Below are positions 39,996-46,423 of a stretch of 64,000 bases of DNA, piece by piece; the first letter of the stretch is position 1; each line of letters starts with the position of its first letter. The position numbers and the translations under genes were made by a program. The notes beneath the pieces were generated by a model. That model saw only the letters and a list, made by a program, of their open reading frames with translations. It was not told where the DNA came from and searched no databases. The stretch comes from Phenylobacterium sp. Root1290 (GTDB lineage: Bacteria > Pseudomonadota > Alphaproteobacteria > Caulobacterales > Caulobacteraceae): the NCBI RefSeq assembly GCF_001425305.1, contig NZ_LMEE01000001.1:988216-1052215 (forward strand), read 5' to 3'.

Positions 39996-40874
39996 TCACC
40001 AGAGCGCGGTCATCACCACGCCGATCGCCGTCGCCGCCCCGCCGATCATCTGACGAAGGCTCAGCTTCTCCTTGAACAGCCGACGGCCCGCGGCGGCGGC
40101 GATCGGCGCCTCGATGACTCCGACGGCGCGCACGGCGCCCGCCGGCGCCAGCGCCAGGGCCGCGAACCAGCAGGCCGACGCCGCCGCGCCGCAGAAACCC
40201 GCGCCCAGCGACTGCCGCCAGGATGCGAACACCGCCCGCAGCGCTGCTGGCCGGGTCATCCCCAGAAACGCCAACAGCGCCGAGGACTGCAGCGCCTGAG
40301 CGATGCAGACCGAGGCCGTCGCCGCATAGATCGGGTGGGCAGGATCGAGCGCCAGGCCAGCCTGCCGATAGGCGTTAAGGGTGACCCCGAAGGCCAGGCC
40401 TGAAGCCAGTCCGAACAGCGCCCCGCGCGCCGCCCCCTTGTCCGCCCCGGCCTTTGGCCAAGACAGCACCGCCAGCCCCGCCGTCGTCGCCGCGACGCCC
40501 AGCCAGGCATGGAGGCTGAGCCTGTCACCGACCACAACCCCCATCAGCGCCGCCAGCGGCAGAGACGACTGCTGCATGAAGGTCGCGACCGCAAAGCCGG
40601 AACGGCGCATGGCCACCAGCAGCGCGGCGGTCGCCGCGACCTGCCCGGCCGCGCCGCTCGCCACAGCCAGGGCGAAGCGCCACGAGAAGCGCGGGTCGGC
40701 GTCGGGGGTCGCCAGGGCGACCGCGCCGAAGATGAGCAAGGCGAACGGCAGGCCGAACAGGAACCGCACCAGCGTCGCGCCCCACGGTCCGGCGTCGCCC
40801 ACCAGGCCGCGCTGCAGCGCGTTGCGCGCCACCTGCAGCGGCGCAGCCGCCGCCGTCAGAATGATCCAGAGCAT
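39996..40874 (-). CDS. EamA/DMT-superfamily transporter
   Basis: A 292-residue membrane protein with ten predicted helices in two five-helix EamA repeats. The ends of both halves (GVVVGDRLSLHAWLGVAATTAGLAVLSW and KEKLSLRQMIGGAATAIGVVMTA) show the typical EamA signature with a charged E/DxLxxxxxxG segment. Substrates of the superfamily include amino acids, nucleotides and metabolites, and no prediction is possible. It lies 47 bases upstream of modA on the same strand; co-transcription is possible. Confidence 0.9.
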   Translation of the reverse strand: MLWIILTAAAAPLQVARNALQRGLVGDAGPWGATLVRFLFGLPFALLIFGAVALATPDADPRFSWRFALAVASGAAGQVAATAALLVAMRRSGFAVATFMQQSSLPLAALMGVVVGDRLSLHAWLGVAATTAGLAVLSWPKAGADKGAARGALFGLASGLAFGVTLNAYRQAGLALDPAHPIYAATASVCIAQALQSSALLAFLGMTRPAALRAVFASWRQSLGAGFCGAAASACWFAALALAPAGAVRAVGVIEAPIAAAAGRRLFKEKLSLRQMIGGAATAIGVVMTALW

Positions 40875-40893
40875 GTCACGATGATCCGCTCAA

Positions 40894-40911
40894 TTCCCGC
40901 GCAGGCGGGAA
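40894..40911. repeat. REP-like hairpin TTCCCGC-GCAG-GCGGGAA
   Basis: A perfect 7-base stem with a GCAG loop between the EamA gene start and the leuA stop. CCCGC...GCGGG hairpins of this form are dispersed in many alphaproteobacterial genomes. Only this copy was recognised here. A second stem, CCGCGCC...GGCGCGG, follows directly (40912-40932). Confidence 0.45.
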
Positions 40912-40948
40912 GCCGCGCCGGGTCGCGGCGCGGGCTGTTCCGATAGGA

Positions 40949-40966
40949 GGCCCCGGGTTTGGGGCC
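40949..40966 (-). terminator. Likely leuA terminator hairpin
   Basis: On the minus strand GGCCCC-AAACCC-GGGGCC begins ten bases after the leuA stop codon. The stem is perfect but no U-tract follows, so termination may be Rho-assisted. Confidence 0.45.
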
Positions 40967-40975
40967 GAGCGGATA

Positions 40976-42553
<1,578 letters not shown>

Positions 42554-42707
42554 TTGCGAACTCTCTTCGCGGGTATTCTGTTGGGGCGGGCGAGCGGGTG
42601 AATTGTCCCCTGAGCGCCCGGCCGCGAAGTCGCGCAGCCTAAAGGGTCGCCCAGGGGCGGCTAAGCCCCAGGTCAAGTAGAAGCAGGCTGTTCGGCTGCG
42701 TGCGCAT
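42554..42707 (-). promoter_or_regulatory. leuA leader: probable translational attenuator
   Basis: The 154-nt leader contains the leucine-rich ORF, then CTTCGCGG (42622-42629). That segment is perfectly complementary to CCGCGAAG (42565-42572), which overlaps the leuA ribosome binding site (GAAGAGAG, 42561-42568). The same CTTCGCGG can instead form a local hairpin with GGCTGCGCG just after the leader stop codon. A ribosome at the stop would cover that competing arm and let the site be hidden. A ribosome stalled at the Leu codons would leave the hairpin intact and the site open. No U-tract is present, so control is more likely translational than by transcription termination. Confidence 0.55.
42639..42707 (-). 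CDS. leuL: leuA leader peptide (22 residues, leucine-rich)
   Basis: ATG at 42707 to TAG at 42639-42641 encodes 22 residues with seven leucines, including the run SLLLLDLGL. Five of the seven use CTT or CTA, codons that are rare in this GC-rich genome, so the peptide is tuned to stall when charged leucyl-tRNA is low. No ribosome binding site precedes it. Instead a promoter (-35 TTGCGG, -10 TACACA) places the transcription start at or next to the A of the ATG, so the mRNA is probably leaderless, as known for the trp leader peptide of Sinorhizobium. It lies 85 bases upstream of leuA. Confidence 0.7.
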   Translation of the reverse strand: MRTQPNSLLLLDLGLSRPWATL

Positions 42708-42714
42708 GGCGCCG

Positions 42715-42743
42715 TGTGTACCCAAACGGCGCCCGAGCCGCAA
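42715..42743 (-). promoter_or_regulatory. leuA promoter driving a leaderless transcript
   Basis: TTGCGG (42738-42743) and TACACA (42715-42720) with a 17-base spacer; seven bases separate the -10 from the leader-peptide ATG. An 8-base inverted repeat (GGCGCCGT at 42708-42715, ACGGCGCC at 42726-42733) overlaps the -10 element. It might be an operator, or the 3' hairpin of the upstream GST gene. Confidence 0.5.
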
Positions 42744-42804
42744 GACTATTGCGCAAAATCAAGGCGTGAAGCGCCTGCGCGCAAGAACCTTCCCCTACGC
42801 GGCG

Positions 42805-43422
42805 TCAGGCGTTTTCCATAGCCATGGCCTTCCAGACGGCCGGACGGGTGATCATTCGCACCATGTGCGCGCTGACCTTGGGAAACTGCGACGGGTCGAC
42901 ACCGTCGTCGTCGAGCCAGCTTGCGAGGGTGAAGAGGTAGGGGTCGCAGACGGTGTACTGTTCGCCCATCACCCAGGGACCAACGAACATCTCGTCCTCG
43001 ATCAGCTGGAAACAGGAGGCCATGTTGTCGGCGACCTTGTCCTGCATCGCCTTCTGGGCCTGGGCGTCGTCGGCCCAGCGCCCCGCGCGGCGGCCATGGG
43101 CGTGGGCGACATGGACGGTGGAGGCAAGGTAGGCGTTGAACTCCTGAACCTTGCCGAAGCCGAACGGATCGGCCGGGGCGAGGTTCGCCTCGGGAAACGC
43201 CTGGGCGATGAAGGCCAGGATCGACACGTTTTCGGTGAGCACGCCCCTATCCGTGACGAGCGCCGGCACCCGGCCCTTGGGGTTGATCTCCAGGTACTCA
43301 GGCTTGTGCTGGTCGCCAGCCCGCAGGTCCATGCGGACGGCTTCGTACTCGGCTCCGGCCTCCTCCAGCGCGATGTGGGAGGCCAGCGCGCAAGAGCCGG
43401 TGGAGTAGTGCAGCTTGAGCAT
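42805..43422 (-). CDS. Glutathione S-transferase family protein
   Basis: A 205-residue GST of the bacterial beta-like group. The thioredoxin-fold half begins LKLHYSTGSCALASHIALEEAGAEYE, with the Ser/Cys pair near residue 9-11, and contains NPKGRVPAL and the LTENVSILAFI cis-Pro/Glu-Asn-Ser site. The helical half carries the N-capping motif TVCDPYLFTLASW. It likely conjugates or reduces electrophiles with glutathione; substrate unknown. Its ATG overlaps the stop codon of the upstream DedA-like gene (TGATG), so the two are translationally coupled. Confidence 0.92.
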   Translation of the reverse strand: MLKLHYSTGSCALASHIALEEAGAEYEAVRMDLRAGDQHKPEYLEINPKGRVPALVTDRGVLTENVSILAFIAQAFPEANLAPADPFGFGKVQEFNAYLASTVHVAHAHGRRAGRWADDAQAQKAMQDKVADNMASCFQLIEDEMFVGPWVMGEQYTVCDPYLFTLASWLDDDGVDPSQFPKVSAHMVRMITRPAVWKAMAMENA

Positions 43423-44150
43423 CAGTCGTCCTTCATCGGCCCGCTGATCGCGTCCTCGCGAGACTTGAGCCAGTTGCGGGCGAACCAGCCGATGGCGATC
43501 CAGATCAGGACGATGAGCCCCAGCCAGAGCAGGTGGGCGCCGCCCTCCCCCTTCAGCACCTGGACAATGGAGTTGCCGGCGAAGGCGGTGAGCACGATCT
43601 TGGGAATGATCCCGATAGCCGTACCCAGCGTGAAGTCGCGCATCCGCATCGGCGTCACGCCGGCCGCCATGTTGACGACGATGAACGGCGCGGAGGGCAC
43701 AAGCCGCACGATCAGACTGGCGAGGAAGCCGTTGCGGCCAACAAGGTCCATGAAGCGCTGCACGCCCTGGCTGGACAGCACCTGCAGCGTCCGCGCCCCG
43801 GCGACGCGCCCGAGATAGAAGCCGACCAGCGCCGAAACCATCGTGCCGATCCAGCTGTAGATGAAGCCCGACCATGCGCCGAAGGCCACCACCGCCGCGG
43901 CGATCAGCACGAATTGCGGCACGCCGACAAAGGCCAGGATCGCAAAGGCGGCGACCGCCACGGGCAACGCCCAGGGGCCGTCGGACGCCAAACCCAGCCA
44001 GCGTTCTACCGTCGCTTCGCCGTCGAAGCCGAGCACCTGGGCGCCGAACAGAAACACGACGCCGACGCCGCCGAACAGGACGAAGGACACGGCTAGCGTT
44101 CGCCAAGCCTTGGCGTCCATTTCGGTGAGGAAGCGGAGGATGCGGCGCAT
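43422..44150 (-). CDS. TVP38/TMEM64 (DedA-like) membrane protein
   Basis: A 242-residue inner-membrane protein of the SNARE-associated/VTT group with about six hydrophobic segments. The key region GRNGFLASLIVRLVPSAPFIVVNMAAGVTPMRMRDFTLGTAIGIIPKIVLTAFAG contains the family re-entrant loop with its R-x(3)-P pattern. Relatives are lipid scramblases or undecaprenyl-phosphate flippases and affect membrane stability. GGGAGAGCG precedes the ATG at 44150. The GST gene follows with a one-base overlap. Confidence 0.9.
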   Translation of the reverse strand: MRRILRFLTEMDAKAWRTLAVSFVLFGGVGVVFLFGAQVLGFDGEATVERWLGLASDGPWALPVAVAAFAILAFVGVPQFVLIAAAVVAFGAWSGFIYSWIGTMVSALVGFYLGRVAGARTLQVLSSQGVQRFMDLVGRNGFLASLIVRLVPSAPFIVVNMAAGVTPMRMRDFTLGTAIGIIPKIVLTAFAGNSIVQVLKGEGGAHLLWLGLIVLIWIAIGWFARNWLKSREDAISGPMKDD

Positions 44151-44223
44151 CGCTCTCCCGTCGCCTGTTCGCGCCGCTGGGTCAAGGCAGGCGGGACCCG
44201 AGGCGCGGACCCGGCGGGGCGGA

Positions 44224-46423
<2,200 letters not shown>

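Follow-up and report, generated by a model that had tools for sequence, protein, structure and literature searches.

Attenuators controlled by the ribosome are known from the trp, his, leu and ilv operons of enterobacteria, where they act on transcription. The leader found upstream of leuA in Phenylobacterium sp. Root1290 resembles them in having an ORF rich in the regulatory amino acid and mutually exclusive pairings of the 1:2, 2:3 and 3:4 kind that, in the model, depend on ribosome position, and its four arms (A, B, C and D) are laid out like the classical 1-2-3-4 attenuator, but its output differs. Unlike the enterobacterial attenuators, it lacks a U-run, its OFF structure reaches the downstream ribosome-binding region, it probably has no 5' UTR, and its ribosome-free RNA is modelled as ON-like. 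In translational attenuation of the erm type, masking of a downstream ribosome-binding site is controlled by translation of the leader; translation of the leuA leader would likewise set the mask, although erm leaders sense drugs through ribosome arrest whereas charged leucyl-tRNA is the signal proposed here.

A regulatory leader of leuA has been described in Actinobacteria, the LEU element (Seliverstov et al. 2005, PMC1262725), in which, according to the accessible part of that article, a run of Leu codons pairs with the leuA Shine-Dalgarno sequence within a pseudoknot. The same part of the article cites leader-peptide mutants of Streptomyces leuA, for which it mentions some effect unlike classical attenuation while its conclusion speaks of no influence, and its authors favour a binding protein. 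In both systems, as far as that part describes the LEU element, a leader ORF with a run of Leu codons precedes leuA, the remaining elements of an attenuator are absent, and the leuA Shine-Dalgarno box is part of a stem; the LEU element further resembles the leaders found outside Caulobacteraceae in that the Leu run itself is the Shine-Dalgarno partner; it is described there as a pseudoknot, whereas the leader reported here has a B:C hairpin core and, in Caulobacteraceae, a separate partner, arm X. Leaderless leader ORFs have a precedent in the alphaproteobacterium Sinorhizobium meliloti, whose trpL, in the portion of PMC10117765 available, is a leaderless ORF for a 14-aa peptide with which an attenuator RNA begins; unlike the leuA leader, it belongs to a Trp attenuator that acts on transcription and releases an sRNA. 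Caulobacter crescentus, from the same family as Phenylobacterium, has an ilv attenuator with a leader ORF for branched-chain amino acids and a rho-independent terminator, according to the available text of PMC4117421, the main text of which contains neither leuA nor leucine. An ilvB leader peptide is mentioned in the available part of a screen for RNA motifs in alpha-proteobacteria (PMC1273637), where leuA has no occurrence. No description of an alphaproteobacterial leuA leader was recognised among the titles and abstracts listed from a collection consisting largely of open-access papers.

The window analysed is a stretch of 64,000 nt, and all features of the leader lie on its minus strand. 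The leuA gene (40976..42553, with its ATG at 42553) codes for a predicted 2-isopropylmalate synthase of 525 aa, as judged from the ORF and its homologues and named as in an earlier note on this DNA. It is preceded, after a gap of 85 nt, by a predicted leaderless ORF (MRTQPNSLLLLDLGLSRPWATL and a stop codon, 42639..42707). The elements that the earlier note had described are all found in the sequence: the ORF has 22 codons, seven of them for Leu and five of these CTT or CTA; a promoter TTGCGG-N17-TACACA has its -35 element at 42743-42738 and its -10 element at 42720-42715, the latter ending 7 nt before the ATG; arm X, CUUCGCGG (42629-42622), is perfectly complementary over 8 bases to arm Y, CCGCGAAG (42572-42565); and GGCUGCG (42639-42633), whose first base is also the final one of the leader stop codon, can pair with CGCGGCC (42626-42620), forming a local hairpin that hides X. 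The overlap of Y with the leuA ribosome-binding region (GAAGAGAG, 42568-42561) also exists, although it is limited to the upstream half of that region.

The proposed sensor codons, a choice suggested by the sequence and by folding at successive ribosome positions, form a Leu run CUG CUU CUA CUU (42675..42686), and the other Leu codons of the leader are at 42671-42669, 42665-42663 and 42644-42642. Arm A, GGGGC (42665..42669), has a possible partner in the GCCCC of arm B (42658-42654). CUUA (42662..42665) is made of the final Leu codon before arm B plus an A and is the start of the core element in all 48 class-wide sequences described below. Arm B, CCCCUGGGCG (42648..42657), encodes the residues RPWA. 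Arm C, CGGGCGCUCAGGGG (42607..42620), has two overlapping halves, of which CGCUCAGGGG (42616-42607) would pair with B and CGGGCG (42620-42615) with arm D (CGCCCG, 42587..42592), its partner in the proposed OFF state, which has no U-run on its 3' side. The minimum-energy fold contains a further hairpin at the start of leuA, GCGAA-gagag-UUCGC (42556..42570), that may compete with X:Y.

Little of this stands out in the single sequence. Folding of the window leader, which the earlier note had put forward as a check, gave an unremarkable energy (z -1.24, with 23 of 200 shuffles equally good), a generic promoter scan had no match in 42450-42900 and leaves the leader promoter unscored, and none of the 4227 covariance models of Rfam 15 matched positions 40000-45000 of the window at E up to 1. 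The finding rests on comparison, and it is the conservation of the leader, not the folding energy of one sequence, that argues against chance. A terminator-like hairpin with a T-rich tail (42776-42762, minus strand) was also observed downstream of the preceding gene, just upstream of the leader promoter.

Of 101 genomes of the same genus, 100 had a LeuA match at E 0.001 or better, which was weak (about 1e-4) in two of them (G087 and G095). One leuA locus with its upstream DNA was taken from each of 90 genomes, and the leader was present in 86 of these 90 loci. The loci without it were L014 and L015, whose upstream DNA is short because of contig ends, L113 and L165. In L113 (G053) the leader frame lacks the usual stop and reads through X, C, D and Y towards leuA, which is either a sequencing error or a natural read-through variant of the attenuator. 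L165 (G057), with a core of the rhizobial type (CTTATCCGCCCCTGAG), is one leuA copy of a Phenylobacterium assembly in which another leuA piece is present, and reflects either contamination or transfer. TTGC was found 33-40 nt before the ATG in 85 of the 86 leaders, the exception (L125) being cut by a contig end, and these leaders contain a mean of 6.6 Leu codons, in a screen that required at least 3. Outside the genus, a covariance model matched 74 genomes of the family; 60 loci were fetched and 58 re-found by pattern, all 58 with a TTG 35-37 nt before the chosen start, a count favoured by a start choice that preferred promoter support.

Among 139 distinct Caulobacteraceae leaders, TTGC lies 36, 35 or 37 nt before the ATG in 79, 36 and 22 leaders (137 in total); one of the other two has TTGC at both 39 and 35 nt, and in the last none lies in range. 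A TTGC at 33-40 nt had been the reason for keeping most of these leaders, a choice that cost the family L125 (contig end) alone. Further loci left out were L061, L063 and L088 (leuA start unrecognised), later L104, and 13 loci from outside Caulobacteraceae lacking a promoter match at this spacing. A single TA-type -10 match was found at 13, 12 or 14 nt in 73, 36 and 17 leaders (126 of 139), and position -1 is C in 90% of them. No Shine-Dalgarno sequence precedes the leader ATG, the duplex with the anti-Shine-Dalgarno having -1.23 kcal/mol there, weaker than the -1.84 of randomly chosen upstream positions and the -2.70 before leuA. The fixed promoter position is strong circumstantial evidence that transcription of the leader begins at its ATG, and, together with the start context and the lack of a Shine-Dalgarno sequence, good circumstantial evidence that the leader is translated leaderless, as the earlier note had suggested for this Leu-rich peptide.

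Two mutually exclusive sets of helices were evaluated in an alignment of 98 distinct leaders (A1), and the core was followed in 48 class-wide sequences (A2). The ON set joins 42657-42648 to 42616-42607 in B:C, and 42639-42633 to 42626-42620 in the local hairpin, and has 93.6% of its cells paired in the 98 leaders as compared with 32-53% for slid partners; its covariation score beats all but 1 of 500 shuffles yet is near that of slide +1, and the set contains only one double change. The B:C helix has 95.8% of its cells paired in the 48 cores and 91.5% in the 98 leaders. The two parts of the local hairpin reach 96.3 and 97.4% in the 98 leaders and 84.7 and 76.2% in the 48 cores, where pair 38:66 has changed on both sides in 11 sequences, and the claim that this hairpin hides X is supported accordingly in both alignments. 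The OFF set (A:B, C:D and X:Y) has 89.9% of its cells paired in the 98 leaders, with 29-54% for slid partners. It contains 12 double-change cells, as compared with 4.4 +- 1.9 after shuffling (reached in 0 of 500), although slide +1 also gives 12, and its covariation score was not significant in these leaders (58 of 500 shuffles). Within this set, C:D alone has 84.7% of its cells paired, and A:B 94.9% but no changes on both sides. The class-wide cores contain 21 double changes where 9.1 were expected, and slide -1 gives 27. The A2 sequences (48 of 49 representatives, L165 being removed by hand) were picked by a pattern that required CTTA, CCCCTG and a GGGG end of arm C, so that the invariance of these bases is partly by construction. 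Pairing is well kept, but double changes do not exceed those of the slid controls.

The RNA downstream of the ribosome was folded for each codon position in the 98 leaders, with a footprint of 10 nt beyond the A-site codon and positions numbered from the CUU codon nearest upstream of arm B (42665-42663). While the A-site occupies the Leu run (-7 to -4), the model gives 7.7-9.1 expected pairs for B:C and 1.6-2.5 for X:Y, and from that CUU on it gives 0.6 or less for B:C, 8.3-9.6 for C:D and 4.8-8.2 for X:Y. The predicted exchange between B:C and C:D persists over footprints of 8-14 nt, with the point of exchange displaced by one or two codons. In 70 of the 98 leaders the model gives more X:Y pairing for a ribosome at the stop codon than for one at -6 (P 6e-6), and the X:Y value at the stop falls from 6.6 to 4.9, 3.2 and 2.1 pairs as the footprint grows from 8 to 10, 12 and 14 nt. 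In the window's own sequence X:Y is predicted only for A-site positions +1 to +6, with 0.02 pairs at the stop codon, a loss that may be explained by competition from the GCGAA:UUCGC hairpin at the leuA start, and X:Y is thus marginal there in the model. Predicted unpairing of the Shine-Dalgarno window of leuA barely differs between stalled and finished ribosomes (0.50 and 0.53, P 0.09, 98 leaders). With a wider window and a 13-nt footprint, the modelled cost of opening is 4.8 kcal/mol on the Leu run and 5.6-6.3 past it, and 4.5 kcal/mol at +8, which is the stop codon of 22-codon leaders such as that of the window. RNA free of ribosomes is predicted to be ON-like (B:C 7.7, X:Y 2.4). Since arm C exchanges between B and D in the model, the structure would depend on the position of the ribosome, and since arm B is already covered in the model when a ribosome waits at the CUU just upstream of it, the sensing codons should precede that CUU.

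It is reasonably likely, in our judgement, that this arrangement is a leucine-responsive, ribosome-controlled attenuator of leuA. Transcription would start at the A of the leader AUG, as the promoter position indicates, so that translation would begin at the very 5' end of the RNA. When leucyl-tRNA is scarce, ribosomes would stall on the Leu run and arm B would be free to pair with C, a state in which the local hairpin is predicted to hold X and the leuA start to remain usable. A ribosome that has gone beyond the last Leu codon before B would cover this arm, so that C would pair with D; X, once released, would pair with Y over the leuA ribosome-binding region, and initiation would presumably drop. 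The step from X:Y to repression is inferred, because the modelled Shine-Dalgarno accessibility hardly moves and X:Y is lost at the stop in the window. The observation made in the earlier note is confirmed, and its interpretation is in part supported: the local hairpin and X:Y were recognised in it but the main switch, arm C pairing with B or with D, was missed, and the release of X that it ascribed to a ribosome finishing the peptide is predicted past the last CUU upstream of B but lost at the stop in the window.

The output would probably be translational, perhaps with Rho-dependent termination as a consequence. An effect on transcription itself, with the C:D hairpin terminating intrinsically or through Rho and X:Y being secondary, is the alternative that survives best, although we regard it as unlikely: the A-B-C-D geometry matches that of classical transcription attenuators, the modelled states with X:Y also contain C:D, which is the stronger of the two, and a leader with a rho-independent terminator is described for Caulobacter ilvBN in the available text of PMC4117421, but no U-run follows C:D in the 98 leaders, where the richest 8-nt window on the 3' side of arm C holds at most 4 T in 97 and 5 in one, and a terminator scan found none on the minus strand at that place. 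The missing U-run makes translational control likelier than intrinsic termination, which is itself unlikely on the sequence. Moreover, a terminator at C:D would leave arm Y, which lies downstream of D and upstream of leuA, without a function, even though its ability to pair with X is maintained.

That maintenance is seen across the family. Of 128 distinct X/Y pairs, 107 can form a helix of 6 bp or more and 15 reach at most 4 bp; the helix occurs in several different sequences, such as CUUCGCGG:CCGCGAAG, CUCGCGG:CCGCGAG, CGUCGCGG:CCGCGACG, UCGUCG:CGACGA and UUCGUCGC:GCGACGAA. When the arms were swapped between leaders, own pairs bound better than swapped ones (-14.02 and -12.73; z -7.2, 0 of 5000), with a weaker result outside Phenylobacterium (27 of 5000); a first run of this test had left out 8 of the 98 leaders, in which the C arm was missed by the pattern. 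Control comparisons also deviate (z -3.7 for X with a window upstream of the promoter, and z -5.3 and -4.6 for leader windows at -42 and -36), so that the test is inflated by relatedness, and the swapped-duplex energies, weakened in this way as a decisive proof of X:Y, were complemented with a test that takes the tree into account. In this test, substitutions were redistributed over a FastTree tree of 138 leaders, for which the leader sequences (with X and Y) and 45 nt of leuA had been used; the paired fraction of X:Y was 0.766 as compared with a null of 0.531 +- 0.037 (0 of 1000), while registers slid by -1, +1 and +2 were at the null and -2 was above it (6 of 300). Because MAFFT misplaced Y in Caulobacter, consensus patterns served to anchor X and Y, which favours the consensus equally in observed and null data. 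Compensatory changes on the same branch numbered 4 against 1.1 expected (22 of 1000), after exclusion of L299, a doubtful alignment that had given 3 of 7 events, and slide -1 also gives 4 (reached in 1 of 300). Pairing of the two arms, as claimed from the window, is thus maintained across Caulobacteraceae, although strict compensatory changes are few and the evidence from double changes is modest. As to topology, B:C and X:Y could together make a pseudoknot.

The earlier note had placed the leader in Caulobacteraceae, where it and X:Y are indeed kept, but its core is spread beyond that family: the element CUUAnnnGCCCCUGR...CAGGGG recurs upstream of leuA in many Alphaproteobacteria. A covariance model of the core (R1), built from the 48 sequences of A2, matched 63 of 385 genomes of the class, 112 of 199 of the family and 47 of 398 of the phylum, counts that are lower bounds because the stricter filters of Infernal were used; 46 of the 47 phylum matches are within the class, and one partial, weak match is outside it (G837, E 0.0033). 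The 29 best class-wide matches besides the window (L175-L203) are all upstream of leuA by tblastn, and 56 of 60 weaker matches have a leuA-like start downstream by a loose pattern, the other 4 including the single one outside the class. In the window's own genome R1 gave the leuA site with E 2.9e-14 and one partial match at chance level (E 0.17) with no adjoining leuA, and Rfam 15 had no match in 10 homologous loci. A second weak match was present in each of G743, G751 and G830, which may be chance or another regulated gene. The sister genus g2 (G163 and G378) has neither the core nor a match to this type of leuA at E 1e-100 or better, so its leucine synthesis must use another leuA type or differ in regulation, and a genome of another genus lacking a core match has a leuA with 58% identity.

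Outside Caulobacteraceae it is the Leu run that best complements the 22-24 nt upstream of leuA. In 43 such loci, 2 of which (L189 and L192) were kept despite an implausibly short distance to the assigned leuA start, the window at -18 gives z -5.0, and the position of X is weak (z -2.6 at +24 and -1.3 at +30). After the pattern had been noticed, 60 further loci were fetched, of which 15 were left out (core or leuA start unrecognised) and 45 were usable; these give z -4.0 at -18 and -5.0 at -12 (0 of 2000 each), -2.2 at +24, and -2.6 and -2.5 at -30 and -48. Helices of at least 8 bp between the Leu run and the leuA region are possible in 17 of the 45, where 5.9 were expected and 2000 permutations reached at most 14, such as UCCUUCGACU:AGUCGAAGGA (L321) and UGGUCCUUCG:CGAAGGACCA (L359), and about a third of the loci do not exceed 5 bp. 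Some genera occur in both sets, and these statistics ignore kinship. Such pairing recalls the LEU element and raises the alternative that in the window, too, the Leu run directly masks the leuA ribosome-binding site, which a ribosome on those codons would free. The agreement of both sets of loci speaks for it, but in 136 Caulobacteraceae leaders the Leu-run window gives z -1.7 and the X window z -7.2, so that this trait of the LEU element was not found in the window's family, and the window's Leu run, CUUCUACUU, has only short complementarity to GAAGAGAG, making direct masking by the Leu run improbable at this locus. The likeliest reading of these comparisons is that one sensor would operate with two masks, the Leu run outside Caulobacteraceae and X inside. 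A broader proposal, which in our estimation stops a little short of probable, is that leuA is controlled across much of Alphaproteobacteria by a previously undescribed element, CUUA-N3-GCCCCUGR ... CAGGGG. The Leu codons of many lineages would then be both sensor and anti-Shine-Dalgarno mask, lifted by the leucine-starved ribosome sitting on it, and in Caulobacteraceae a separate arm would have taken over as the mask and the leader would have turned into a leaderless ORF with a fixed place at the RNA 5' end.

The codons of the leader are also distinctive. CTT and CTA, called rare in the earlier note, make up 16% of 1773 Leu codons in 34 long ORFs of the window (chosen by length, their status as genes unchecked) and 54% of 869 in the 139 leaders, and CTT alone accounts for 13.3 and 52.5%, respectively. 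The end of the peptide, LGLSRPWA, is well conserved (PWA is kept in 78 of 86 genus leaders) and corresponds to the coding side of arms A and B, a stretch in which third codon positions (CTT, CCC) are fixed too. In 8 of the 86, however, the leader stops after SRP with a UGA inside arm B, so that the leader can do without the residues WAPL whereas the RNA arm persists. This clade (L051, L074, L151, L154, L161 and relatives) has ..GLSRP* in place of ..SRPWAPL*, as in other Alphaproteobacteria, and outside Caulobacteraceae most recognised leaders end in P, also with the UGA inside B. The coincidence with the arms, the fixed third positions and the leaders ending at SRP indicate that conservation follows the RNA, and an action of the peptide itself, through arrest of the nascent chain or in trans like peTrpL, which the conservation of LGLSRPWA and PWA might suggest, is for the same reasons very improbable.

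The core is a candidate RNA family unmatched by Rfam 15, and the spread of the element across the class offers many natural variants for testing how a single sensor may be connected to various masks. The element is also of relevance to the unsolved LEU element of Actinobacteria, whose logic is similar on paper. If the proposed attenuator is true, its output would be at translation rather than termination, and a bacterial family that includes the model organism Caulobacter would control leucine synthesis through a leader beginning with the very first nucleotide of its RNA, so that leucine sensing would depend on leaderless initiation.
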